From the NCBI GenBank assembly GCA_020072565.1, contig JAIQGI010000013.1:62001-126000 (forward strand): a stretch of DNA of 64,000 bases, written 5' to 3'. The translations under genes were made by a program, and so were the position numbers. Below are positions 50,873-64,000 of the stretch, one piece after another; the first letter of the stretch is position 1; the number at the start of each line of letters is the position of its first letter. This stretch comes from Terriglobia bacterium. GTDB taxonomy: Bacteria; Acidobacteriota; UBA6911. The notes beneath the pieces are model-generated. The model was given only the letters and a program-made list of their open reading frames with translations, ran no database searches and had not been told where the DNA came from.

Positions 50873-51070
50873 CTCGCAATTATAGATTCAAGCCTGCTAT
50901 CATTCATATGAAATTGCGATCATGGCTCCCGGAATACTATACAATCCGGAATATTCCGGGAGAGAACGCAAGCTCATCCAAATCTGCAGCCACAGGATGT
51001 GGCTTGGAAGCGACGCCCGCTGTGGAATTTTTCGTGTGGCTTGCGGCTCGCAGAAACGCAGGTGCAGTTT

Positions 51071-53332
51071 ATGAAACAAGACCGGCAAGCGGCCCGACCG
51101 GCCCAAGAGGATGGGATTCGCCAGCGGTCCCAGGCTCCGATTTATCTCGATTTCAACGCCACGACCCCAATCGCTCCCGAGGTGGCCGATGCGATGCTCC
51201 CCTATCTTTATGAGCATTTCGGCAATCCGTCGAGTGCCCACCCGTTGGGCGCGGCGGCCAAGCTGGCAGTGGAGCGCGCCCGCATTCAGGTTGCACGGCT
51301 GATTGGAGCCCATCCGGAGGAGATCCTCCTGACCAGTGGCGGTTCTGAGTCGAACAACACGACGATAAAGGGCGTGGCCGCCGCTCTGAAATCTCGCGGG
51401 CGTCATATCATCACGTCCGCCGTCGAGCATCCCGCGGTGCTCGAACCGTGCCGCGCGCTCGAGGCCGATGGCTATCAGATCACCATCCTGCCTGTGGATA
51501 GTGCCGGGCGCGTCGATCCTGAGGATGTTGCCCGCGCCCTCACCCCTGAAACGATCCTCGTCACGATTATGCACGCGAATAATGAAGTGGGCACGATCCA
51601 GCCGATCGCGCGGATCGTGGATATTGCGCACCGGCAGGGCGCGCTGGTGCACACAGATGCCGCCCAGTCGGTCGGCAAGATACCCGTGCGCGTGGATGAT
51701 CTTGGCATCGACTTCCTGACTATCGCCGGGCATAAGCTCTATGCCCCCAAGGGAGTCGGCGCGCTCTACATGCGTTCAGGGATCCGCCTGCCGCAGTTGA
51801 TCCACGGAGCAGCCCACGAACTGGGCCGGCGTGCCGGCACCGAGAACGTGCTGGGCATCGTCGGGCTGGGCAAGGCATGCGAGCTTTGCGCCGAGCGTTT
51901 GGACGGCACCATGGCCCATTGCCGGGCAATGAGGGATCGCCTCTGGCACGGGTTGGAACAGGGCCTGGATTCGCTCCGCCGCAACGGTGACCCGGACGAA
52001 GGGCTGCCGAACACCCTCAGCGTCAGTTTTCGAGGCATCGATGCCGCAACCCTGCTGGCTGAGATCGGTGATCGAGTGGCAGCCTCGGCGGGCGCGGCCT
52101 GTCACGCCCAGGGGGTAACGGTGTCCTCAGTGCTGGAGGCCATGAAAATCCCGTTGGAGTATGCCATGGGCACCGTGAGGTTCTCTGTGGGTCGCAGCAC
52201 GACTGCGGAGGAGATCGACGCTGCCGTCGGCATCGTTGTGGCAGCTGCACGACGCCTGATGCGCAACGATAGCGCCCCGTCCGTCATCGAGAGTGGAGGG
52301 ACGATCCGGTTGACGCGCTTCAGCCACGGTATGGGCTGCGCCTGCAAGCTGCGCCCAAAGGAACTCGAGCAAGTACTGCGCGCTTTGCCTGCGCCCGTGG
52401 ATCCTGCCATTCTCGTAGGCACCGCCACCTCCGACGATGCTGCCGTGTACCGGCTCGGCGAGGACCTCGCCGTGGTCCAGACCGTCGACTTCTTCACGCC
52501 GATAGCGGATGATCCCCGCCTCTTCGGCGCCATCAGCGCCAGCAACTCGCTCAGCGACATCTACGCCATGGGCGCCCGGCCGCTGTTCGCGCTGAGTATT
52601 GTCGCATTCCCCACAAACCGGCTCCCCCTTGACGTCCTGCAGCAGATCCTGCGCGGCGCCGCAGACGCGGCACGCGAGGCAGGCATCGACATCATCGGTG
52701 GCCACAGCATCGAGGATCCCGAACCAAAGTTCGGACTGGCGGTAACCGGCATCGTGCGGCCTGATCGCATTATCACAAACGCCGGAGCGCATCCACGGGA
52801 CGCGCTCGTGCTCACCAAGCCGCTCGGCACAGGAATCGTGGCCGCCGCCGCCCGGCGCGATGCCGCCGATCCCGGGCTGATCGACCTGGCCTTCAGGACG
52901 ATGCGCTCGCTTAACCGCGCGGCAGCCGAAGTCATGGTCGAGGAAAAGGTACATGCCTGCACCGATGTGACCGGATTCGGGCTGCTCGGGCATCTGAGGG
53001 AGATGTGTGCCGGCGCCGGTCTTGACGCCGAGTTGGATCTCCCGGCCGTGCCGCTGCTGGAGGGCGTTCGCGAACTCGCGGAGGCCGATATCGCGCCCGG
53101 CGCCACCCTGGATAATCTTGAGCACTTTTCCCCTCATGTGAGCTGGGCCCGCGAGCGGTCGCGCGCCGACATGCTCATCCTTGCCGACGCACAGACTTCC
53201 GGAGGTTTGTTGATTGCGGTCGCGCCCGAAAGAGCTGCCGCACTCGTGGAAGCTCTCCATGCACGCGGCGTGTCTGCCGCAGCCGTTATCGGCAGATTCC
53301 TCGGCCGTGGCGCCGGCCAGATTTGCATCTAA
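51071..53332 (+). CDS. selD: Cysteine desulfurase / selenide, water dikinase fusion (NifS-SelD)
   Basis: A 753-residue two-domain enzyme. Residues 1-390 are a NifS/IscS-type PLP cysteine desulfurase: IYLDFNATTPIAPEVADAML, SGGSESNNTTIKG, TDAAQSVGKIPV, PLP Lys222 in AGHKLYAPKG and catalytic Cys344 in SAGAACHAQ. Residues about 405-753 are SelD: SHGMGCACKLRPKE with Cys423 and Lys426 at the E. coli Cys17/Lys20 positions, DDAAVYRL, TVDFFTPIADD and DVTGFGLLGHL. The desulfurase half probably supplies selenide to the SelD half, which makes selenophosphate. The active-site position is Cys, not selenocysteine. SelA, SelB and tRNA-Sec were not found in the window. Confidence 0.92.
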   Translation: MKQDRQAARPAQEDGIRQRSQAPIYLDFNATTPIAPEVADAMLPYLYEHFGNPSSAHPLGAAAKLAVERARIQVARLIGAHPEEILLTSGGSESNNTTIKGVAAALKSRGRHIITSAVEHPAVLEPCRALEADGYQITILPVDSAGRVDPEDVARALTPETILVTIMHANNEVGTIQPIARIVDIAHRQGALVHTDAAQSVGKIPVRVDDLGIDFLTIAGHKLYAPKGVGALYMRSGIRLPQLIHGAAHELGRRAGTENVLGIVGLGKACELCAERLDGTMAHCRAMRDRLWHGLEQGLDSLRRNGDPDEGLPNTLSVSFRGIDAATLLAEIGDRVAASAGAACHAQGVTVSSVLEAMKIPLEYAMGTVRFSVGRSTTAEEIDAAVGIVVAAARRLMRNDSAPSVIESGGTIRLTRFSHGMGCACKLRPKELEQVLRALPAPVDPAILVGTATSDDAAVYRLGEDLAVVQTVDFFTPIADDPRLFGAISASNSLSDIYAMGARPLFALSIVAFPTNRLPLDVLQQILRGAADAAREAGIDIIGGHSIEDPEPKFGLAVTGIVRPDRIITNAGAHPRDALVLTKPLGTGIVAAAARRDAADPGLIDLAFRTMRSLNRAAAEVMVEEKVHACTDVTGFGLLGHLREMCAGAGLDAELDLPAVPLLEGVRELAEADIAPGATLDNLEHFSPHVSWARERSRADMLILADAQTSGGLLIAVAPERAAALVEALHARGVSAAAVIGRFLGRGAGQICI

Positions 53333-53803: not shown

Positions 53804-55975
53804 GTGCCAGAATGCGGCACAACTGGAATCGTGTCTGCCGTTTTTAGATACAGCAGCATCGTGATCGCGATCATGCTCATGGCAAGCGTCCCGGCCGGCG
53901 CCCAGCTTTCTCCCGGTGTGCTGTCGCAGGCCCACAGCTCCCTCGACGGCGCGGCCCACTGCATCGACTGCCACGAAATAGGCCAGCGGTCTCTGGTGTT
54001 CAAATGCCTGGACTGCCACCGCGAAATCCGGCAGCGACTAGACGAGGGGCGAGGGCTGCACTCCACTCTGGTCGGCCAGGAGAGAAGCGGTCTGGCTTGC
54101 ATCAAATGCCATTCCGAGCACAACGGCAGGAATTTTGGCGTGATTCACTGGGATCCCCCTCAGCGGAACTTCGATCATCGAAAAACCGGGTACATCCTGG
54201 CAGAGCGGCATGCCGCTCTCCCGTGCCGGGACTGTCACCAATCCTCCCACATTCCTGCCCAGGCTGCTTCGGATATCCTGGTAAAGGATCGGAGCCGCAC
54301 TCTACTTGGCCTGAGCCGGGAATGCACATCATGCCACCTCGACCAGCACCACGGCCAACTTTCCGCAAAGTGCAACACCTGCCACAATTTCTCCCGTTGG
54401 CGCGACGCCCTCAGCTTCGACCATCAAAAGTCCCGCTTTCCGCTCGAAGGGCCTCATGAGAAGGTCGAATGCCAGAAGTGCCACCAGCAAGTGGCCGACG
54501 TGAAACCTTATCTCAAGTACCAAGGCCTGGTGTTTGAAGATTGCACCCCCTGTCACAGCGATCCTCATCGGGGTGCGTTTCAAGCCACCTGCAAGACGTG
54601 CCATTCCCAGCCAAGCTGGAAGCCCGTTGTCGTTTCCAGCGTGTTCGACCACGCACGCACCAAATATCCGCTACAGGGAAAGCACGCCGCGCTGCCTTGC
54701 AAGTCTTGCCACAAGAAGAGCGATTTCAAACAACCAGTCGCCCATGACCGGTGCGCGGATTGCCACCGGCCGAGTCCGCATAAGGATCAGTTCGCCAACC
54801 GAGCTGACGGCGGCGAGTGCTCTGCGTGCCACAGGGTCGAAGGATTCAAACCGTCCACCTTCAACGCCGCGCAGCATCGCAAGAGCCGATATCCGTTGGA
54901 CGGCCGACACGCCGCGGTGCGTTGCGATCAGTGTCACAAGCCACAGGCCGCAGCAACGGTCTACCGGATCACGGACACCCGCTGCGCCGCTTGCCATACG
55001 GACACCCATGCCGGCCAGTTCTACCAACCTCCTTACGCCGGCCAGTGCGAGTCATGCCACACCGTCAAGGCGTTTTCTCCCTCCACATTCGCACTCGCGC
55101 GGCATCAGTCGACGCGATTTCCTCTCACCAACGCTCACGGAGCCGTTGTTTGCAGCGAGTGCCACAGGAAAGCGCAGGGTAAGGATGCCCTCCCGGCCAA
55201 GTATCATTTTGAAAACCGGGCCTGTTCAGCGTGCCATGCGGATATCCATCGGGGTCAGTTCTCGGAACGCATGGCGCAGCCTGGACCGGATGGCGCAGCC
55301 GGGGACTGCGCAACCTGCCACAGCACTGCCACATGGCAGAAACTGCCGGATTTCAACCACAGTAAGACAGATTACGCGCTGGTGGGCGCGCACGAACGGG
55401 TTCCTTGCGACCGATGCCACCAGCGCGGCGAACCGAAGCCCGACATAGACCGGGTCATTTTCAAGGCGACTCCAAGACAGTGTGCTGCCTGTCATGAGGA
55501 TCGGCATGGGGGGCAGTTCGCTGCAGAGGGCTCCACCGAATGCTCTCGCTGCCACACGCCGCGGGCGTGGAAGCCATCCACCTTCAATCACGACACCGGT
55601 TCAAGCTACGCGCTCAAGGGGGCGCACAGTTCGACGCCATGTGCGGGTTGCCACACCGCAACCACGTCAGCAGACGGCAAAAAGGTGATCTCCTACCGGG
55701 GCCTGCCGCACGCCTGTTCCGCATGTCATCGCAGCAAGGAACCCACAAATGCCCGTGATTCAGAAGCCGGGCCGCGCCGGCAGGGAGAGTCGGGATCGGA
55801 AATGCCATCCGGAGCCGCCACCGTTCTGCGCGGCGCCGGGGTAGCGACCCCGCCGGTCGTGCGCGGCTTCGAACGCGGCGCCGAGGGGCGAAATCCACTT
55901 CATGCCCTGCTGGCGTTTGACTACCCGTCTGGAAAACATGGAGTCTTAACAACACGAATGGGAGCGGCCCAGTGA
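53804..55975 (+). CDS. Secreted multiheme cytochrome c with 23 CxxCH motifs
   Basis: A 723-residue protein beginning at GTG with AAAGGAAG upstream, then a signal peptide (AVFRYSSIVIAIMLMASVPA). I count 23 CxxCH heme-binding motifs from CIDCH near residue 50 to CSACH near 645. They are arranged in loose repeats that alternate F/Y-x-H...YPLxGxHA and CxxCH triplets, such as KYPLQGKHAALPCKSCHKKS. It is most likely a periplasmic or surface electron carrier. The last 75 residues are Arg/Gly/Pro-rich, heme-free and unlike the rest. The stop overlaps the next cytochrome's start (TGATG), so the two are co-translated. Confidence 0.92.
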   Translation: MPECGTTGIVSAVFRYSSIVIAIMLMASVPAGAQLSPGVLSQAHSSLDGAAHCIDCHEIGQRSLVFKCLDCHREIRQRLDEGRGLHSTLVGQERSGLACIKCHSEHNGRNFGVIHWDPPQRNFDHRKTGYILAERHAALPCRDCHQSSHIPAQAASDILVKDRSRTLLGLSRECTSCHLDQHHGQLSAKCNTCHNFSRWRDALSFDHQKSRFPLEGPHEKVECQKCHQQVADVKPYLKYQGLVFEDCTPCHSDPHRGAFQATCKTCHSQPSWKPVVVSSVFDHARTKYPLQGKHAALPCKSCHKKSDFKQPVAHDRCADCHRPSPHKDQFANRADGGECSACHRVEGFKPSTFNAAQHRKSRYPLDGRHAAVRCDQCHKPQAAATVYRITDTRCAACHTDTHAGQFYQPPYAGQCESCHTVKAFSPSTFALARHQSTRFPLTNAHGAVVCSECHRKAQGKDALPAKYHFENRACSACHADIHRGQFSERMAQPGPDGAAGDCATCHSTATWQKLPDFNHSKTDYALVGAHERVPCDRCHQRGEPKPDIDRVIFKATPRQCAACHEDRHGGQFAAEGSTECSRCHTPRAWKPSTFNHDTGSSYALKGAHSSTPCAGCHTATTSADGKKVISYRGLPHACSACHRSKEPTNARDSEAGPRRQGESGSEMPSGAATVLRGAGVATPPVVRGFERGAEGRNPLHALLAFDYPSGKHGVLTTRMGAAQ

Positions 55976-58900
55976 TGTCAAACGGCCATGGAGAAAAGAA
56001 CTTTATCAGGATCGGGGGCCTGGGGATGTTGACGTCGCTAGTCCTGCTTTGGATTTGGTGCGGGACATCGCCGGGCGCAGCTCAGTCACCCCAGCGAGGA
56101 CCGGCGCGCAGCCCGCATGGTCCCCTTCAGCTCGCTTGCGAAAACTGTCATACATCCACAAACTGGGCGCCCCTCCGCCCTGCTCCCGACTTCGATCACC
56201 AGCAGACTGGATATCCGTTGCGTGGTCTGCATCAGCGTGTGAACTGCCGCAACTGCCACACCACCCTGGTCTTCAAGGATGCCGGCGCAAACTGTGCCGA
56301 TTGTCACGCCGATATCCACATGCGCAGCCTTGGGACGGGATGCGAAACATGCCACTCGCCGCGCGGATGGCGCGTCCAGGTGCAAGCCGTTAAGGATCAC
56401 CAGAACAGGTTTCCGCTCATGGGTGCGCACTCAGCTACCGAGTGCGAGTCCTGCCATCTCGGCGCTGCGGTCGGGCGTTATAAGGGCTTGGACACCCAGT
56501 GCGACTCTTGCCACCTCAAGGATTATCAGTCCAACAAGACGTTTGATCATGTAGCCGCAAAGATTCCCACGACCTGCGAGAGCTGCCATCAGATGAACTC
56601 CTGGACCGGGGCGAGATTCGACCATAGCAGCGCCAGGTTCCCACTCACCGGAGCACATGCGACGGTGGCTTGTGAACTCTGCCACACGAACAGGGATTAC
56701 GCGAGCACATCTACGGCCTGTGCTTCATGCCATGTGGCTGACTTCAACAAGACGAGCAATCCGAATCACAATGCCGCCGGTTTCCCACAGGATTGCGCCG
56801 CATGTCACGTGACCGCCGAGTGGAAGGGCGCCAAATACGACCATAACATGACCAGATTCCCACTCACTGGAGGGCATGCGGCGGCGGAGTGCCGCGCCTG
56901 CCACGCTAACGGCAACTATGCGAACACCTCCACGGCCTGCGCCTCGTGCCATATGACGGACTTCAATGGCACGAACAATCCCAATCATGTCGCGGCCGGT
57001 TTCAGTCAGGATTGCTCCCTCTGTCACACATTCGCCCAGTGGACAGGCGCTAAGTTCGACCACAACACAACCAAATTCCCCCTTACTGGAGGGCACGTGT
57101 CTCTGGGGTGCTCGACTTGCCACACCACCGGCAGCTACGCTAGCACTTCCACAGCCTGCGCCTCATGCCACAGGGCGGATTTCAATAGCACGAGCAATCC
57201 CAATCACACCGCCGCCGGCTTCAGTCAGGATTGCACAAGCTGTCATGTGACCGCCCAGTGGAAGGGCGCTAAATTCGACCATAACACAACCAAATTCCCC
57301 CTCACAGGAGGGCATGTCCTGGCCGACTGCTCGCGATGCCACACCAGCGCCAATTATGCGACTACGTCCACGGTTTGCGCTTCCTGTCACATGACCGACT
57401 ATAACAACACTAGCAACCCCAACCACACGGCTGCCGGATTCGTGCAGGATTGCACGATGTGTCACACGACTGTTCAATGGAAGGGCGGCAAGTTCGACCA
57501 CAACGCCACCAGGTTTTCACTGACGGGCGCGCACGTTTCAGTCACATGTCAGACCTGCCATACCACACCGAATTATGCGAGCACCTCCACTGCCTGCGCT
57601 TCGTGCCACTTGGCGGACTTTAACAAGACAACCAATCCCAACCATACCACCGCCGGATTCCCGCAGGATTGCACGGCCTGTCACACGACTGTCCAGTGGC
57701 TGGGGGCCACGTTCAACCACGGCAACACCAAGTTCCCCCTCACCGGCGCCCACGTTCCGGTCGCATGCCAGACCTGTCATACCACGCCGAATTATGCGAG
57801 CATGTCCACTGCCTGCGCTTCGTGCCACCTCGCGGACTTCAACAAGACAGCCAATCCCAACCACACCGCGGCCGGATTCCCGCAGGATTGCACCGTCTGT
57901 CACACGACCGTCCAGTGGCTGGGGGCCACGTTCAACCACGGCGACACCAAGTTCCCTCTCACCGGCGCCCACGTTCCGGTCGCATGCCAGACCTGTCATA
58001 CCACGCCGAATTACGCGAGCACGTCCACTGCCTGCGCTTCGTGCCACCTCGCGGACTTCAACAAGACAGCCAATCCCAACCACACCGCGGCCGGATTCCC
58101 GCAGGATTGCACGGCCTGTCACACGACCGTCCAGTGGCTGGGGGCCACGTTCAACCACGGCAACACCAAGTTCCCCCTCACCGGCGCCCACGTTCCGGTC
58201 GCATGCCAGACCTGTCATACCACGCCGAATTACGCGAGCACGTCCACTGCCTGCGCTTCGTGCCACCTGACGAACTTTAACAGTACGACCAATCCCAACC
58301 ACGTCCTGGCAGGCTTTGGTCAGGATTGTTCCCCTTGCCATACAACCGTCCAGTGGACAGGAGCTACGTTCAACCACGGCAACACCAAGTTCCCCCTCAC
58401 CGGCACACATGTTACGGTCACATGCCAGACCTGCCATACCAGCGGCAGCTATGCGAGCACTCCCACTACCTGTGTTTCTTGTCATCTGACTGACTTCAAC
58501 GGTGCGAACAGTCCTAATCACACTACAGCCGGCTTTCCACAGGATTGCTCGACCTGTCATACTACCGTCCAGTGGATGGGAGCCGTATTCGATCACAGCA
58601 AGACCGGCTTCGTTCTCACAGGGGTTCATCTACAAACAGCCTGCGCACTTTGTCATCCAAATGGCCGATTTGTCGGAACTCCCACAACTTGCTCCTCCTG
58701 TCATCTGGCCGACTTCCAAGGGACAAACAATCCCAATCATACAGCGGCTGGATTCCCGCAGGACTGCTCGCTGTGCCATTCCGCAGCCGGCTGGCCGGGA
58801 GCCCAATACACTCACCCGAGCGCCAAGTTCACACTCACGGGGTTTCATATCACTCTGAACTGCAGCGCTTGTCATGCAAACGGCCAATATGCCACGCTGA

Positions 58901-59466
58901 GCACCACGTGCGTCACCTGCCATTTGAGCGACTACAACGGCACGACGAGTCCCACACATGCAACATACGGTTTTCCTCAGGATTGTACCGTGTGCCATGC
59001 AACCACTGCCTGGACTCCGGCCTCCTTCAGTCATGCCACGACCAACTTCGCCCTCACCGGAGCGCACGTGAGTGTCACGTGTGTGAGCTGTCACATCGGG
59101 GGTGTCTTCAAAGGCACGCCGACAACCTGTTACGCTTGCCACAAGACGGACTACACCGGCATCACCAACCCAAACCATGTGGCGGCGGGGTTTCCTACGA
59201 CCTGTTCCACTTGTCACACAACCACCGTCTGGACCGGTGCGACCTTCACGCACAGCCAGTTCCCCATTAATTCCGGACACCACGCCAGAGCATGGACCTC
59301 CTGCGCCGACTGCCACACCAACGCGAACGATTACAAGGTCTTCTCCTGCACCGGCTGCCATCAGCACGACAAAGCCAGCGTGGATTCGCATCACAGGTCG
59401 GTGCGCAACTATGTCTACAACAGCGCGAATTGCTATTCGTGTCATCCGAATGGAAGTGCGGGATAG
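55975..59466 (+). CDS. Giant repeat-built multiheme cytochrome c with 46 CxxCH motifs
   Basis: A 1163-residue exported protein (signal segment LGMLTSLVLLWIWCGTSPGA). I count 46 CxxCH motifs: seven in the N-terminal part, 36 in twelve tandem units and three at the C-terminus. Each 73-residue unit has CxxCH starting at unit positions 19, 35 and 60, plus conserved His at 3 (F-x-H), 14 (G-A/G-H) and 51 (NPNH). That is three hemes and three possible distal ligands. This predicts bis-His hemes in a regular rod, like a conductive wire. Start ATG 55975 overlaps the preceding stop and has GGGAG upstream. The beta-barrel gene follows after 4 bases, which suggests it passes through or docks on that barrel. 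Confidence 0.93.
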   Translation: MSNGHGEKNFIRIGGLGMLTSLVLLWIWCGTSPGAAQSPQRGPARSPHGPLQLACENCHTSTNWAPLRPAPDFDHQQTGYPLRGLHQRVNCRNCHTTLVFKDAGANCADCHADIHMRSLGTGCETCHSPRGWRVQVQAVKDHQNRFPLMGAHSATECESCHLGAAVGRYKGLDTQCDSCHLKDYQSNKTFDHVAAKIPTTCESCHQMNSWTGARFDHSSARFPLTGAHATVACELCHTNRDYASTSTACASCHVADFNKTSNPNHNAAGFPQDCAACHVTAEWKGAKYDHNMTRFPLTGGHAAAECRACHANGNYANTSTACASCHMTDFNGTNNPNHVAAGFSQDCSLCHTFAQWTGAKFDHNTTKFPLTGGHVSLGCSTCHTTGSYASTSTACASCHRADFNSTSNPNHTAAGFSQDCTSCHVTAQWKGAKFDHNTTKFPLTGGHVLADCSRCHTSANYATTSTVCASCHMTDYNNTSNPNHTAAGFVQDCTMCHTTVQWKGGKFDHNATRFSLTGAHVSVTCQTCHTTPNYASTSTACASCHLADFNKTTNPNHTTAGFPQDCTACHTTVQWLGATFNHGNTKFPLTGAHVPVACQTCHTTPNYASMSTACASCHLADFNKTANPNHTAAGFPQDCTVCHTTVQWLGATFNHGDTKFPLTGAHVPVACQTCHTTPNYASTSTACASCHLADFNKTANPNHTAAGFPQDCTACHTTVQWLGATFNHGNTKFPLTGAHVPVACQTCHTTPNYASTSTACASCHLTNFNSTTNPNHVLAGFGQDCSPCHTTVQWTGATFNHGNTKFPLTGTHVTVTCQTCHTSGSYASTPTTCVSCHLTDFNGANSPNHTTAGFPQDCSTCHTTVQWMGAVFDHSKTGFVLTGVHLQTACALCHPNGRFVGTPTTCSSCHLADFQGTNNPNHTAAGFPQDCSLCHSAAGWPGAQYTHPSAKFTLTGFHITLNCSACHANGQYATLSTTCVTCHLSDYNGTTSPTHATYGFPQDCTVCHATTAWTPASFSHATTNFALTGAHVSVTCVSCHIGGVFKGTPTTCYACHKTDYTGITNPNHVAAGFPTTCSTCHTTTVWTGATFTHSQFPINSGHHARAWTSCADCHTNANDYKVFSCTGCHQHDKASVDSHHRSVRNYVYNSANCYSCHPNGSAG
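56617..59244 (+). repeat. Twelve tandem 219-bp units inside the 46-heme cytochrome gene
   Basis: The codon for the first residue of each unit recurs at exactly 219-base steps (56617, 56836, ... 57712, 57931, 58150, 58369, 58588, 58807, 59026), and a thirteenth partial unit opens at 59245. No unit is longer or shorter. Units starting 57712, 57931 and 58150 are about 97 percent identical, showing recent duplication; outer units differ more at DNA level but keep all heme residues. Confidence 0.93.
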
Positions 59467-59470
59467 TCTT

Positions 59471-61135
59471 ATGTCACGAGTGCGGGTACTACTGGTTTTT
59501 GCAAGCCTGTTGGCGGCGTCTCTGGTTGCCTTCGGGCAGCAACAGACTGAAGTTCGTACGCGTTTTACAGTGAAATACGTCGTTGAAGGCGCGGTCTATC
59601 TGGAAGGGGGCCGTACCGCGGGTCTGGCTGAGGGACAGAAATTGACGGTCAGGAGAATCGATCCCGCCCACCCTGAGGGCCGAACCATCGCGCAGATCGA
59701 GGTCGCTTCGGTTGCTTCGACATCGGCCGCCTGTTCGGTCGGGTCCGCCGATGAGGAGATCCGAGTCGGGGATGAGGTCTGGATGTCTCAAGAGGACGCG
59801 GAAGCGCTGCGCAAGAGTCGAGCGGCCGATGAGTCGGCGAAATACCCGCAGGTCGTGAGTTTCACTGCCGGCGATCCGATTGAGGACGAAGCGCGTGCGG
59901 CGGTACCGCGTCCTCCGCTGACCGAAATCAACCGCATGCGCGGACGCATCGGATTCGATTACAGCTCGATCAGGGATCTCACCACATCTAACAGTACCTC
60001 AGCGCTGGGTTTTGTGGTCAGAGCGGATGCCACCCGTCTGGGAGGCACCCATTGGAACCTGAGCGGCTATTACCGAGGCCGCTTTACGCGTCAAAAGCAG
60101 AGCGCTGTGCAGGAGACTCTCACCGACTTGATCCAGCGGACCTATCACCTGAGCCTCACTTACAGCAATCCTGAATCACCTTGGGTCGCGGGCATGGGGC
60201 GGTTTTACCTCCCCTGGGCCACCAGCCTGGGCACAATAGACGGGGGTTATTTCGGTTACCGCACTGGCAAGAGGGTCACTCTCGGCCTGTTTGCAGGCAG
60301 TTCGCCCGATCCGACTTCGTGGCGCTACGATCGCAACCGGCAGCTGGTCGGGGCTTCGGTAAATCTCGAGGGCGGCAGCTATGAATCGTTCCGTTACACG
60401 AGCACTTTTGGAGCGTCGGTGACCAGGATAAGCTGGAAGCCGGACCGCCAGTTCGGGTTCGTCGAAACCAGCCTGCAATACAAGCGGGCCCTGTCCCTTT
60501 ATTACAACCTCGAAGCGGATCTATTGCGAGCCACAGGCACAAACCAACAGCGGGAGATCGCCATGAGCCGGAGCTATCTCACGGTTCGCCTGCAGCCTCA
60601 TCGGTTCATCTCCTTCGACCTCAGCCACAATTTCTTGAGAGAGATGCCCACGTTCGATCCCAGGCTGGTGGCTACAGGATTGGTCGACAAGCTCCTGTTC
60701 CATGGCCTCAGCGCCGGCGTGCGCCTGGAACTCCCGCTTCACATCAGCCCGTATGCCAGTTTCGGCCGCAGTTCCAAGACGGGCGACACTCAAAGTTCCT
60801 GGAACCAGATGTACGGCCTCGCAATCGGCAACATCGCCCATACGGGGATTCGTGGAGATGCGCGATACTCGAAGTTTGACAGCTCGTTCGGTCGTGGAAT
60901 CTATCGCTCGGTCTCAATTTCACGCTCGGCAGGTGAAAGCCTCAGGTTCGAGTTGCAGGCCGGTCAGCAAAACTATGTCTCATCCTTCTCGTTGCAGAAT
61001 CGGGCCCGCTGGGTAAACGCAAACGCAGATTGGATCATGCTCAGACACTATTTTGTCGGGGTAGGCTGTACGCTCTATCGCAGCCCCGGCCAAGGCTATA
61101 ACCAATGGTATCTGAACGTGGGCTACGGCTTTTAG
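59471..61135 (+). CDS. Outer-membrane beta-barrel of the cytochrome conduit
   Basis: A 554-residue exported protein (signal VLLVFASLLAASLVAFGQ). Residues about 20-130 form a small soluble domain (TVKYVVEGAVYLEGGRTAGL, GQKLTVRRID) that resembles an SH3-like or flagellar-assembly-type beta domain. From about 160 the sequence is alternating beta-strands with aromatic girdles (THWNLSGYYRGRFTRQ, QRTYHLSLTYSNPES, ADWIMLRHYFVGVGC) ending NQWYLNVGYGF, a classic barrel C-terminus with terminal Phe. Directly after the 46-heme gene, it is the likely porin partner of a porin-cytochrome conduit. I see no similarity to MtrB by eye. ATG 59471 follows the cytochrome stop by 4 bases. Confidence 0.78.
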   Translation: MSRVRVLLVFASLLAASLVAFGQQQTEVRTRFTVKYVVEGAVYLEGGRTAGLAEGQKLTVRRIDPAHPEGRTIAQIEVASVASTSAACSVGSADEEIRVGDEVWMSQEDAEALRKSRAADESAKYPQVVSFTAGDPIEDEARAAVPRPPLTEINRMRGRIGFDYSSIRDLTTSNSTSALGFVVRADATRLGGTHWNLSGYYRGRFTRQKQSAVQETLTDLIQRTYHLSLTYSNPESPWVAGMGRFYLPWATSLGTIDGGYFGYRTGKRVTLGLFAGSSPDPTSWRYDRNRQLVGASVNLEGGSYESFRYTSTFGASVTRISWKPDRQFGFVETSLQYKRALSLYYNLEADLLRATGTNQQREIAMSRSYLTVRLQPHRFISFDLSHNFLREMPTFDPRLVATGLVDKLLFHGLSAGVRLELPLHISPYASFGRSSKTGDTQSSWNQMYGLAIGNIAHTGIRGDARYSKFDSSFGRGIYRSVSISRSAGESLRFELQAGQQNYVSSFSLQNRARWVNANADWIMLRHYFVGVGCTLYRSPGQGYNQWYLNVGYGF

Positions 61136-61143
61136 CATTTCAG

Positions 61144-61959
61144 ATGAAAAATATATATCGGCGCAGGTATGGCGGGCGGTTCAGGGTGCTGCCGCTCTGC
61201 ATCCTGATGGGGTTCATATTTCCGGCCATCATTCAGGCACAGTCAAGTTCGCCGCCGCTTGCCACGCTGCTCGAAAAACTGGGGAAACAGGTCGAGTCCT
61301 TCCGGCAGCAGTATCCGGCAGTAACCTGCAGTGAAGCGGTATCGCAGGTAAAGCTCGCCAAGGGGGGAGGGGTTGTTCGACGGCTGGAGTCCCAGTTTGA
61401 CTACCTGATCCTGATAAGCCCTGGCGAGAACTATCTTGCGGTGGAAGAATCACGCCTTATAAAGAAACCGTCAGCCAAGCGCAACGACGTGCCCCTCCTG
61501 GTCACAGGAGGCTTTTCCACCATGATTCTGGTTTTCCATCCCCTGTACCAAAACTGTTTCGAGTACCTGCAATTGCCGGAGGAATCCATCGGCGGCAAAA
61601 GGGTTGTGTGCATTCAGTTCCAGCATGTCCCGGGAACACGATCTACCGCATGTCTGCGCCTGAATGGCAGAGATGTCCCCCTGGAGCTGAAAGGAAAAGC
61701 ATGGATCGATCCCGAAACAATGGCTTTCATCAGAATCACCGCTGAGCTGGCGAGTCCCCTCACCGATCTGGGGCTGCAGACCCTTACCGCCGATGTGCAG
61801 TATGCCCCGGTGCGCTTTGACGGCGCCGAGAGCGCGTATTGGCTGCCCACGTCGGCCTTGATCGAAGTCGCCACTGCCCAGCAGCACTGGCGCAACATCC
61901 ACCGGTTCACCGACTACCGCCGTTTCTCGGTCACCACTCAGAGCAGCGTGAAACGATGA
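61144..61959 (+). CDS. Exported protein of unknown function in the cytochrome operon
   Basis: A 271-residue protein with a signal peptide (LCILMGFIFPAIIQAQ). It has a mostly beta-strand body with four cysteines, not in CxxCH arrangement, at about residues 63, 141, 159 and 172 (counted by eye). VTCSEAVSQVKLA, QFDYLILISPGEN and KGKAWIDPETMAFIRITAE suggest a LolA/LolB-like or DUF-type lipid-binding beta fold, as seen in hypothetical Acidobacteria proteins; this is only a resemblance. ATG 61144 lies 8 bases after the barrel gene, and its stop overlaps the next start (ATGA). It may assist assembly or anchoring of the outer-membrane complex. Confidence 0.65.
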   Translation: MKNIYRRRYGGRFRVLPLCILMGFIFPAIIQAQSSSPPLATLLEKLGKQVESFRQQYPAVTCSEAVSQVKLAKGGGVVRRLESQFDYLILISPGENYLAVEESRLIKKPSAKRNDVPLLVTGGFSTMILVFHPLYQNCFEYLQLPEESIGGKRVVCIQFQHVPGTRSTACLRLNGRDVPLELKGKAWIDPETMAFIRITAELASPLTDLGLQTLTADVQYAPVRFDGAESAYWLPTSALIEVATAQQHWRNIHRFTDYRRFSVTTQSSVKR

Positions 61960-62903
61960 GCACTGCAATTCCGCAAGTCCAGGTCCGGGCTATCGGGCGC
62001 TTAGACGCCAAGCCACGACTTCATCGCAATCTGGTGGCGTTTTTAATACTTGTGCTCCTCAGCCTTGCTGTCATTCTCTGCCTGTACGGCCGCGACTACT
62101 ACCTGCTCGACCAGGCGCACCGCCCCTTCTCGCCCATGCATCCCTACCTCAAGCCAAGCGGCGTGATCGGGCTGCGGCTGGGCATGCTGGGATTCTTCCT
62201 GTTCGTGCTTGTCTATCTCTATCCGTTGCGAAAACACTGGGGATGGCTGGGGCGGCGGGGAAAGACGGCACACTGGATTGACTTCCATATCTTGATGGGA
62301 GTGGGAGCTCCGGTCCTTATCAGTTTCCACTCCTGCTTCAAGACCCATGGCTTTGCTGGGATCGCCTATTGGACCATGGCCGCCCTGGTCGTCAGCGGGA
62401 TCACCGGACGCTACCTCTACGCGCAGATCCCGCGCAGCCTGGACGCTGCCATGATGTCACTGCGCGAGATGGAGGATCTCCAGAACCAACTGGCAATGCA
62501 GTTGGCCGCACAGAGTATCCTGCCGCCTGAAGAACTCGAGCGCTGCCTGCGCCTGCCGAATGTGCAGGAGGTGGAACTCATGCCGGTTCTGTATGCCACA
62601 TTCCGGATGTTAAAGGCCGACCTGGTTCGCCCACCCAGGATCTGGAGGCTGCGGCGCAGAGCCTCAGGAAAACGGGCGGCCTTGTTCTCTTTCGGGGGCG
62701 TGCTGCCCACGAACAACATCAATCTTGAAAAAGCTGTTGCCACGGCGCGCAGGCAGGCGGCACTCTCGAAGAAGATACTGTTCCTATCCAAAACCCAACG
62801 TGTCTTCTATTTCTGGCACGTGGTCCACCGCCCTTTCAGCTACACCTTCGCCGTCCTCGTCCTCATTCACGTTACCGTCGCACTGCTTCTCGGCTATTTC
62901 TAA
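61956..62903 (+). CDS. Cytochrome-b-like membrane electron carrier
   Basis: A 315-residue inner-membrane protein with about five helices. Candidate heme ligands line up in pairs: His111 and His125 in helix three (WIDFHILMG, VLISFHSCF), His131, and His288, His291 and His305 near the C-terminus (YFWHVVHRPFSY, VLVLIHVTV). The helix order and HxxHRPF-type stretch resemble cytochrome b561/ferric-reductase-like proteins. A soluble helical segment (residues about 165-280) separates the helix groups. Start ATG overlaps the previous stop. It probably takes electrons from the FAD/Fe-S protein encoded next and passes them to the periplasmic cytochromes. Confidence 0.75.
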   Translation: MSTAIPQVQVRAIGRLDAKPRLHRNLVAFLILVLLSLAVILCLYGRDYYLLDQAHRPFSPMHPYLKPSGVIGLRLGMLGFFLFVLVYLYPLRKHWGWLGRRGKTAHWIDFHILMGVGAPVLISFHSCFKTHGFAGIAYWTMAALVVSGITGRYLYAQIPRSLDAAMMSLREMEDLQNQLAMQLAAQSILPPEELERCLRLPNVQEVELMPVLYATFRMLKADLVRPPRIWRLRRRASGKRAALFSFGGVLPTNNINLEKAVATARRQAALSKKILFLSKTQRVFYFWHVVHRPFSYTFAVLVLIHVTVALLLGYF

Positions 62904-62934: not shown

Positions 62935-64000
62935 ATGGACACACTGTTCTCTTTTCTGATCGCGGCGGTGCTCACATTCTATTTTGTCCGCCGCTATCTC
63001 AAGCGCATAGCCGGGGAGGCTGCAAAAACGAAGAGCAGCGGCTCCGCGCAGATTTCCGGCAGTCCCTGCCCCCGCTGCGGAGCACCCTTGCTGAGCGGCT
63101 CTTCCTTCTGCTCTCGCTGCGGCGCGGCCCTTGCGTTGTGGAATGTCCATCGCGCGCAGGTAAAGGTGACGACCGGAGACGGGGCCCGGCAGGAAAAGCC
63201 CAGGCCGGTGATTGACGCCGCCGTCTGTATGGGCTGCCACAGCTGCGTCGACAGCTGCCCGGAAAAGGGTGCCCTGGAGCTGGTGGGCGGCAAGTCCAAT
63301 CTGGTTCATCCCGAGTTATGCACCGGGCAGGCCCTCTGCGCGAAAGCATGTCCGACGGGCGCGCTCTCGCTCGCCTTCGGCGGCCTGGTAACTCAGACGC
63401 TCAAAGTGCCGCTTGTAAATGAGAATTTTGAGACCAACGTGTCGGGAGTCTACATCGTGGGTGAGTTGGGCGGCATGGGCATGATCAAGACGGCGATCAA
63501 CGAAGGGAAACTGGTCATCGATCACGTGAGGCAGCGGTTGGCAGAAGAAAAACAGGCCGCGCCTGCACCACCCGCGGCGTCGGACGGGAATGCAGTCTAT
63601 GACGTGCTCATCGTGGGTTCGGGGCCAGCCGGCCTGAGCGCTTCCCTCACCGCGCATCAGCACGGCCTGCAATACCTGACCCTCGAACAAGGAGAAATCG
63701 CTTCCACAATCCGGCAATACCCGCGCCACAAGTTCCTCATGGCTGAACCGATCCAGATGCCGCTGTACGGAACGCTTTATATCGCCGACGGTGCCAAGGA
63801 GTCGCTGCTGACGGTATGGGAGACCATCATCACCAATACAGGAGTCCACATCCAGACCAACGAGCGCGTGACCAGGGTCAAGATGAACGGCGGAAACTTC
63901 GAGGTGGAGACCAATAAGAGCCGGTACCACGCCCGACGCGTGGTGCTGGCCATGGGGAAAAGAGGCACCCCGCGGCGTCTGGGAGTGCCGGGTGAGGAAC
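62935..64000 (+). CDS. FAD/NAD(P)-binding Fe-S oxidoreductase with zinc ribbon (partial)
   Basis: The gene runs off the right edge after 355 codons. In order: one N-terminal transmembrane helix (LFSFLIAAVLTFYFV); a zinc ribbon (CPRCG at 45-49, CSRCG at 59-63); a ferredoxin-like domain with a complete Cys98-101-104-108-Pro cluster and a second cluster in which the second cysteine is replaced by Gln132 (Cys129, Gln132, Cys135, Cys139). Next is a segment resembling the C-terminal FAD-binding part of pyridine-nucleotide oxidoreductases (GELGGMGMIKTAINEG, 176-191). A Rossmann FAD motif GSGPAG follows at 228-233 with the expected downstream sequence. It is the likely cytoplasmic electron entry for the operon. 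Confidence 0.85.
   Translation, partial: MDTLFSFLIAAVLTFYFVRRYLKRIAGEAAKTKSSGSAQISGSPCPRCGAPLLSGSSFCSRCGAALALWNVHRAQVKVTTGDGARQEKPRPVIDAAVCMGCHSCVDSCPEKGALELVGGKSNLVHPELCTGQALCAKACPTGALSLAFGGLVTQTLKVPLVNENFETNVSGVYIVGELGGMGMIKTAINEGKLVIDHVRQRLAEEKQAAPAPPAASDGNAVYDVLIVGSGPAGLSASLTAHQHGLQYLTLEQGEIASTIRQYPRHKFLMAEPIQMPLYGTLYIADGAKESLLTVWETIITNTGVHIQTNERVTRVKMNGGNFEVETNKSRYHARRVVLAMGKRGTPRRLGVPGEE

Follow-up and report, generated by a model that had tools for sequence, protein, structure and literature searches.

A length-variable triheme-repeat cytochrome in a probable PCC3-type conduit of Acidobacteriota

Introduction

The window analysed here, a stretch of 64,000 nucleotides from the 7.46-Mb draft genome of an Acidobacteriota bacterium, contains a gene, MHC2, whose product carries 46 heme-binding motifs, largely in a tandem array. 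This raises the questions of how so long a chain of hemes is organised and grows, which proteins it works with and where its electrons would go. An earlier sequence-only reading of the gene had envisaged a heme wire, either a single chain or a polymer, made of exact modules and lengthened by their duplication.

The MHC2 gene

The MHC2 open reading frame runs on the forward strand from 55972/55975 to 59466 and encodes 1163 amino acids counted from the ATG at 55975, which overlaps the stop codon of the preceding cytochrome gene, MHC1, by one base (TGATG). A count of CxxCH motifs returned the expected 46, seven of them upstream of unit 1 and three downstream of unit 12, with a density of 25.3 residues per heme. 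Residue shuffles of the protein (n = 2000) gave a mean of 0.62 motifs and a maximum of 5, which rules out a chance origin of the repeats.

The array consists of twelve units starting at 56617 + 219k (k = 0 to 11), the last at 59026, each with CxxCH at unit positions 19, 35 and 60 (spacing 16/25/32) and additional His at positions 3, 14 and 51, reproducing in full the 219-base steps and invariant residues described earlier. The modules are exact in length, all twelve being 73 amino acids long, but not in sequence, as pairwise DNA identity ranges from 53 to 97%; of the 219 bases, 6 distinguish unit 6 from unit 7. Most of the changes among the units are synonymous, with dN/dS well below 1. No exact repeat in the array exceeds 104 bp in length, so that a miscount of units in the assembly of this draft genome is possible, but not especially likely. 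An open frame of 363 amino acids lies antisense to the repeats (window positions 57538-58629, reverse strand) and is most likely not a gene but a mechanical consequence of the repeated units.

Table 1. Features of the MHC2 operon, in window coordinates, and the evidence for each.
Feature	Position	Strand	Evidence
MHC1, 23-heme cytochrome, predicted periplasmic wire	53804..55975	+	23 CxxCH; Pfam Cytochrome_C7 91.6 bits; start codon uncertain
MHC2, 46-heme cytochrome	55975..59466	+	CxxCH count; Pfam Cytochrome_C7 184 bits, 12 stretches
MHC2 signal peptide and N-terminal heme domain	55975..56616	+	7 hemes, spacing 36,16,16,34,19,25; conserved in homologues
MHC2 triheme array, twelve 73-residue units	56617..59244	+	219-base period
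MHC2 C-terminal cap	59245..59463	+	3 hemes, spacing 15,28; retained among homologues
Predicted outer-membrane beta-barrel (porin)	59471..61135	+	Signal peptide; alternating C-terminal strand WYLNVGYGF with final Phe
Small exported protein of no known family	61144..61959	+	Present in some Acidobacteriota clusters only
IMP, inner-membrane protein, two b-hemes predicted	61956..62903	+	Two WX3HX13H and SGXXG; weak Ferric_reduct match (E 0.058)
Membrane-anchored zinc-ribbon/ferredoxin/FAD-NAD(P) oxidoreductase, YpdA/TrxR-like	62935..64000	+	Domain matches; extends past the window to 64410 on the contig, where it stops (L004:10935-12410)

Heme ligation and family of the triheme unit

Mature MHC2 contains 49 His outside the heme motifs for 46 hemes, and the units contain 36 for 36. 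Across 242 homologous units, His 51 is present in 230, a His near position 3 in 241 and a His at exactly position 14 in 216; Met is rare and none is conserved. The proposal that all MHC2 hemes would be bis-His is well supported by this conservation.

MHC2 scores 184.1 bits against Pfam Cytochrome_C7 (PF14522), passing the curated cut-off of 24.8, and 39.8 bits against TIGR04257 (nanowire_3heme), falling 0.2 bits short of the cut-off of 40. A two-unit profile searched against the PDB matched the 16-heme HmcA best (E 9e-8), followed by other class III cytochromes and by GSU1996 (3OV0, E 0.004), the nearest solved single-chain triheme array to the MHC2 units. Full-length MHC2 and MHC1 had no phmmer match in the PDB. 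AlphaFold2 models of five units (pLDDT 41.4) and of two units with 40 alignment rows (pLDDT 58.8) were too poor for heme contacts to be read, and a Foldseek search of the PDB with these low-pLDDT models gave no match.

OmcS, OmcE and OmcZ are polymers of small subunits whose bis-His c-hemes form long chains and conduct electrons extracellularly. The dense hemes and repeated units of MHC2 could suggest that its chains likewise join end to end, as the sequence-only reading allowed, but none of the three proteins is among the 42 PDB matches of the two-unit profile (E up to 1). MHC2 also has distinct, conserved N- and C-terminal parts and a widely varying length among homologues, which suit a capped single chain, and a polymerising filament is accordingly very improbable.

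Growth in steps of three hemes

A survey of unit number in relatives gave MHC2 heme counts of 10, 16, 19, 22, 25, 28, 31, 34, 40, 46, 52 and 88. For every one of the 25 complete MHC2 proteins from the two-gene form, the count equals 1 mod 3, provided that a CX3CH variant, which three proteins have at one and the same place in the cap, is included. These 25 proteins are related and therefore not independent cases; nevertheless, twelve different values fit the rule, from which it follows that MHC2 changes length by whole triheme units. Most homologues keep the N-terminal spacing (36,16,16,34/35,19/21) and the cap (15,26-29), and differ in how many triheme units lie in between. A sub-clade with a 24-heme MHC1 has a heme-count constant of its own, with remainder 0.

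Within the window, units 1-9 are nearer to one another than to those of any homologue, unit 10 is about equally distant and units 11-12, which adjoin the cap, lie nearer to homologues. Both this pattern and the rule of three bear out growth by unit duplication. The relatedness of units 1-9 also implies that their constant length of 73 residues is partly due to shared descent. Among 244 homologous units the period ranges from 70 to 78, with a mode of 73 found in only 90, which rules out a 73-residue period as a rule of the family and does not support the suggestion that fixed unit length reflects a geometric constraint. The spacing within these units is more regular (16 in 188, 25 in 232) than the linker to the next unit (29-37).

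The 88-heme relative, from a Bacteroidota draft genome (L041:7024-13725), has 27 units, and cap-like units recur inside its chain. Its heme number exceeds the 85 that was called the largest in 2017.

Operon partners of MHC2

The genes listed in Table 1 overlap or almost touch, forming a compact operon, and no inverted repeats were found near it. MHC1 homologues have 20 or 23 hemes with conserved spacing, or 24 in one sub-clade, and the signal peptide and gene order suggest a periplasmic location. The predicted barrel had no Pfam match above the cut-off and matched no curated family; its homologues adjoin MHC2 in relatives. IMP is a protein of 315 amino acids with the motifs WIDFHILMGVGAPVLISFH, SGITG and WHVVHRPFSYTFAVLVLIH, the SGXXG lying between both WX3HX13H, and this pattern is present in 12 loci. 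Upstream of the operon, a single open reading frame on the forward strand (window positions 50999-53332) encodes a NifS-like cysteine desulfurase joined to selenide, water dikinase (SelD); this fusion of selenium-pathway functions probably has no bearing on the conduit. Further c7-type multiheme frames of up to 1171 amino acids occur elsewhere in the host genome (G000:C10:10355-11425, C31:57740-61319, C17, C2 and C20), so the host has a wider heme-protein repertoire.

The inner-membrane protein of the PCC3 conduit has been described as a five-helix protein of about 300 amino acids with two WX3HX13H and SGXXG (PMC5566968). As IMP carries these motifs, the system is classed as a PCC3-type conduit, a membership judged from features and motifs set against published descriptions and not against Pseudomonadota sequences. 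Gene order and the literature would place MHC2 on the outside. The main reading, that this is a PCC3-type conduit with MHC2 as its outer, length-variable wire, is given a probability of roughly 0.7, a figure that does not include the direction of electron flow.

Alternatively, MHC2 could be a periplasmic heme capacitor, with the barrel serving something else. GSU1996 of Geobacter, a dodecaheme cytochrome in which triheme domains with one His-Met heme each are arrayed in a single chain, is regarded as a capacitor (PMC10138318), and MHC2 resembles it in the profile search and lies just below the TIGR04257 cut-off. The operon, however, also encodes a predicted barrel, and its IMP has the PCC3 motifs. 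MHC1, with its conserved 20-23 hemes, is already a candidate for the periplasm, and MHC2 alone varies in length, which fits a component whose length the periplasmic width does not constrain. The capacitor is thus improbable, and the outer wire of a PCC3-type conduit is the preferred reading of MHC2.

Distribution and fusion of the conduit genes

A genome scan found conduit clusters in Acidobacteriota, Bacteroidota, Calditrichota and KSB1. Of 396 Acidobacteriota genomes, 78 had a match to the IMP profile. The match was strong in about 40, and in most of these giant cytochromes adjoin the IMP gene; forty Acidobacteriota stretches with IMP were examined for cytochromes and neighbours. Weaker IMP-like stretches occur inside frames of about 820-1070 amino acids in many Acidobacteriota (for example G179:C27:286695-287420 and G106:C24:148225-148908).

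The plasmid pEMTOL02 of Emticicia oligotrophica DSM 17448 encodes ccsA, IMP, the flavoenzyme, a 23-heme MHC1, a 40-heme MHC2 and a predicted barrel. This cassette (L042:4198-16782, NC_018749.1), in a cultured Bacteroidota strain, thus includes a cytochrome-maturation gene, ccsA, of its own. Searches of plasmids for more PCC3 clusters found Emticicia alone. As this strain is a cultured environmental isolate, its cassette makes the system testable.

In one sub-clade, MHC1 and MHC2 are fused in one frame, cap included (L104:10200-13967 with 51 hemes and L098:5875-10944 with 53 hemes); in relatives of these the two are separate. Residues 14-583 of the L104 protein align with MHC1 20-650 and the remainder with MHC2, and a predicted barrel gene adjoins this fusion. 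Since BLAST alignments of repeat proteins are noisy, the fusions were defined by co-linear best segments together with heme spacing. Such natural fusions suggest that MHC1 and MHC2 probably touch, as would be expected if they meet in the barrel.

The FAD/ferredoxin oxidoreductase occurs together with IMP in 24 Acidobacteriota stretches and in L036, L037, L038, L040, L041 and L042 (the Emticicia plasmid). It is absent from the sub-clade with fused or 24-heme cytochromes, so it does not belong to every form of the system. Published descriptions of PCC3 list four genes and no such flavoenzyme (PMC5566968, PMC12442390), and no paper among those searched links PCC3 with Acidobacteriota, with Bacteroidota-type names and heme-binding, or with flavoprotein. 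Judged against these descriptions of Pseudomonadota clusters, the flavoenzyme is provisionally regarded as new to PCC3. It supplies a donor side that is specific and open to testing, and makes outward flow likely.

Proposed mechanism and direction of electron flow

The order of steps and partners proposed here draws on domain content, the operon, conservation and the published model. NAD(P)H would probably be oxidised by the FAD/ferredoxin enzyme, by way of FAD and two [4Fe-4S] clusters, and electrons would then cross the inner membrane over the two b-hemes of IMP. The 23-heme MHC1 would span the periplasm, the outer membrane being crossed inside the beta-barrel, and electrons would exit along the presumably stacked hemes of MHC2, a single-chain bis-His wire, to minerals, humics, electrodes or partner cells. 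By comparison with known heme wires, MHC2 would be perhaps 35-40 nm long. With a fixed base and a fixed tip, its reach or charge capacity would evolve by gain and loss of triheme units.

The same anatomy could also serve electron uptake, with the conduit running inward to oxidise Fe(II), minerals or cathodes. Inward flow is the published PCC3 model (He et al., PMC5566968), and PCC3 is common in Gallionellaceae iron oxidisers (PMC10734462). Against it stands the conserved FAD/ferredoxin/NAD(P) enzyme in the cluster. Electrons from Fe(II) are too weak for the reduction of NAD(P) unless energy is supplied, and the flavoenzyme therefore counts against uptake, which is considered unlikely, though less so than the capacitor. 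It is likewise because this enzyme is conserved that NAD(P)H is suggested as the donor and outward flow as the direction, perhaps twice as likely as inward flow. A full conduit that carries NAD(P)H electrons to the cell exterior without passing through the quinone pool, has its reach tuned in three-heme steps and occurs in at least four phyla, and also as a plasmid cassette, is put forward tentatively, at rather less than even odds.

Comparison with known systems

OmcS, OmcE and OmcZ differ from MHC2 in being polymers of small subunits, and showed no sequence match to it in the profile search. GSU1996 (PDB 3OV0, 3OUE) likewise consists of tandem triheme c7-type domains in one chain; its hemes are packed as a wire, as is proposed here for MHC2. 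It differs in having four domains to the twelve units of MHC2, in its periplasmic location and in the order of ligand His and CxxCH. The His-Met heme of each GSU1996 domain also has no counterpart in MHC2, whose units carry three extra His and no conserved Met.

In Burkholderiales S13, a pair of 24- and 49-heme cytochromes was described, the larger of which differs in length through inserted or deleted heme domains (Arbour et al. 2020, PMC7399161). The cluster resembles the present one in its two giant cytochromes before a porin and in the varying length of the larger; that comparison was limited to close Burkholderiales relatives, and the porin was called OmbB-like.

PCC3 itself is the closest system. 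As described by He et al. in 2017, it comprises a porin, a periplasmic cytochrome with a median of 21 hemes and an extracellular, repeat-rich cytochrome with a median of 34 and up to 85 (PMC5566968). The 23 hemes of MHC1 and 46 of MHC2 agree with this, as does the density of MHC2 with the 22-39 residues per heme (median 26) of PCC3 cytochromes, and in both systems the sequence is rich in Thr, Ser, Ala and Gly, with about 25 residues to each heme. Both have an IMP of similar length (about 300 and 315 amino acids) with the same motifs. The predicted barrel next to MHC2 would correspond to the PCC3 porin, with the weakest evidence among these features. The idea of a wire is not new, having been proposed for PCC3 (PMC5566968; see also PMC7399161), and PCC3 cytochromes give long linear AlphaFold models (Hoover et al. 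2023, PMC10734462); the single-chain wire reading of MHC2 is plausible on this precedent.

PCC3 was, however, described as four genes in Alpha-, Beta- and Gammaproteobacteria, whereas the present clusters come from four further phyla and show a ferredoxin/FAD/NAD(P) enzyme, heme steps of three and, in one sub-clade, MHC1-MHC2 fusions. These four features are what is new here and, together with a cultured plasmid bearer, they make the published wire concept testable: triheme quantisation shows how such wires grow, and the fusions indicate that the two cytochromes probably make contact.
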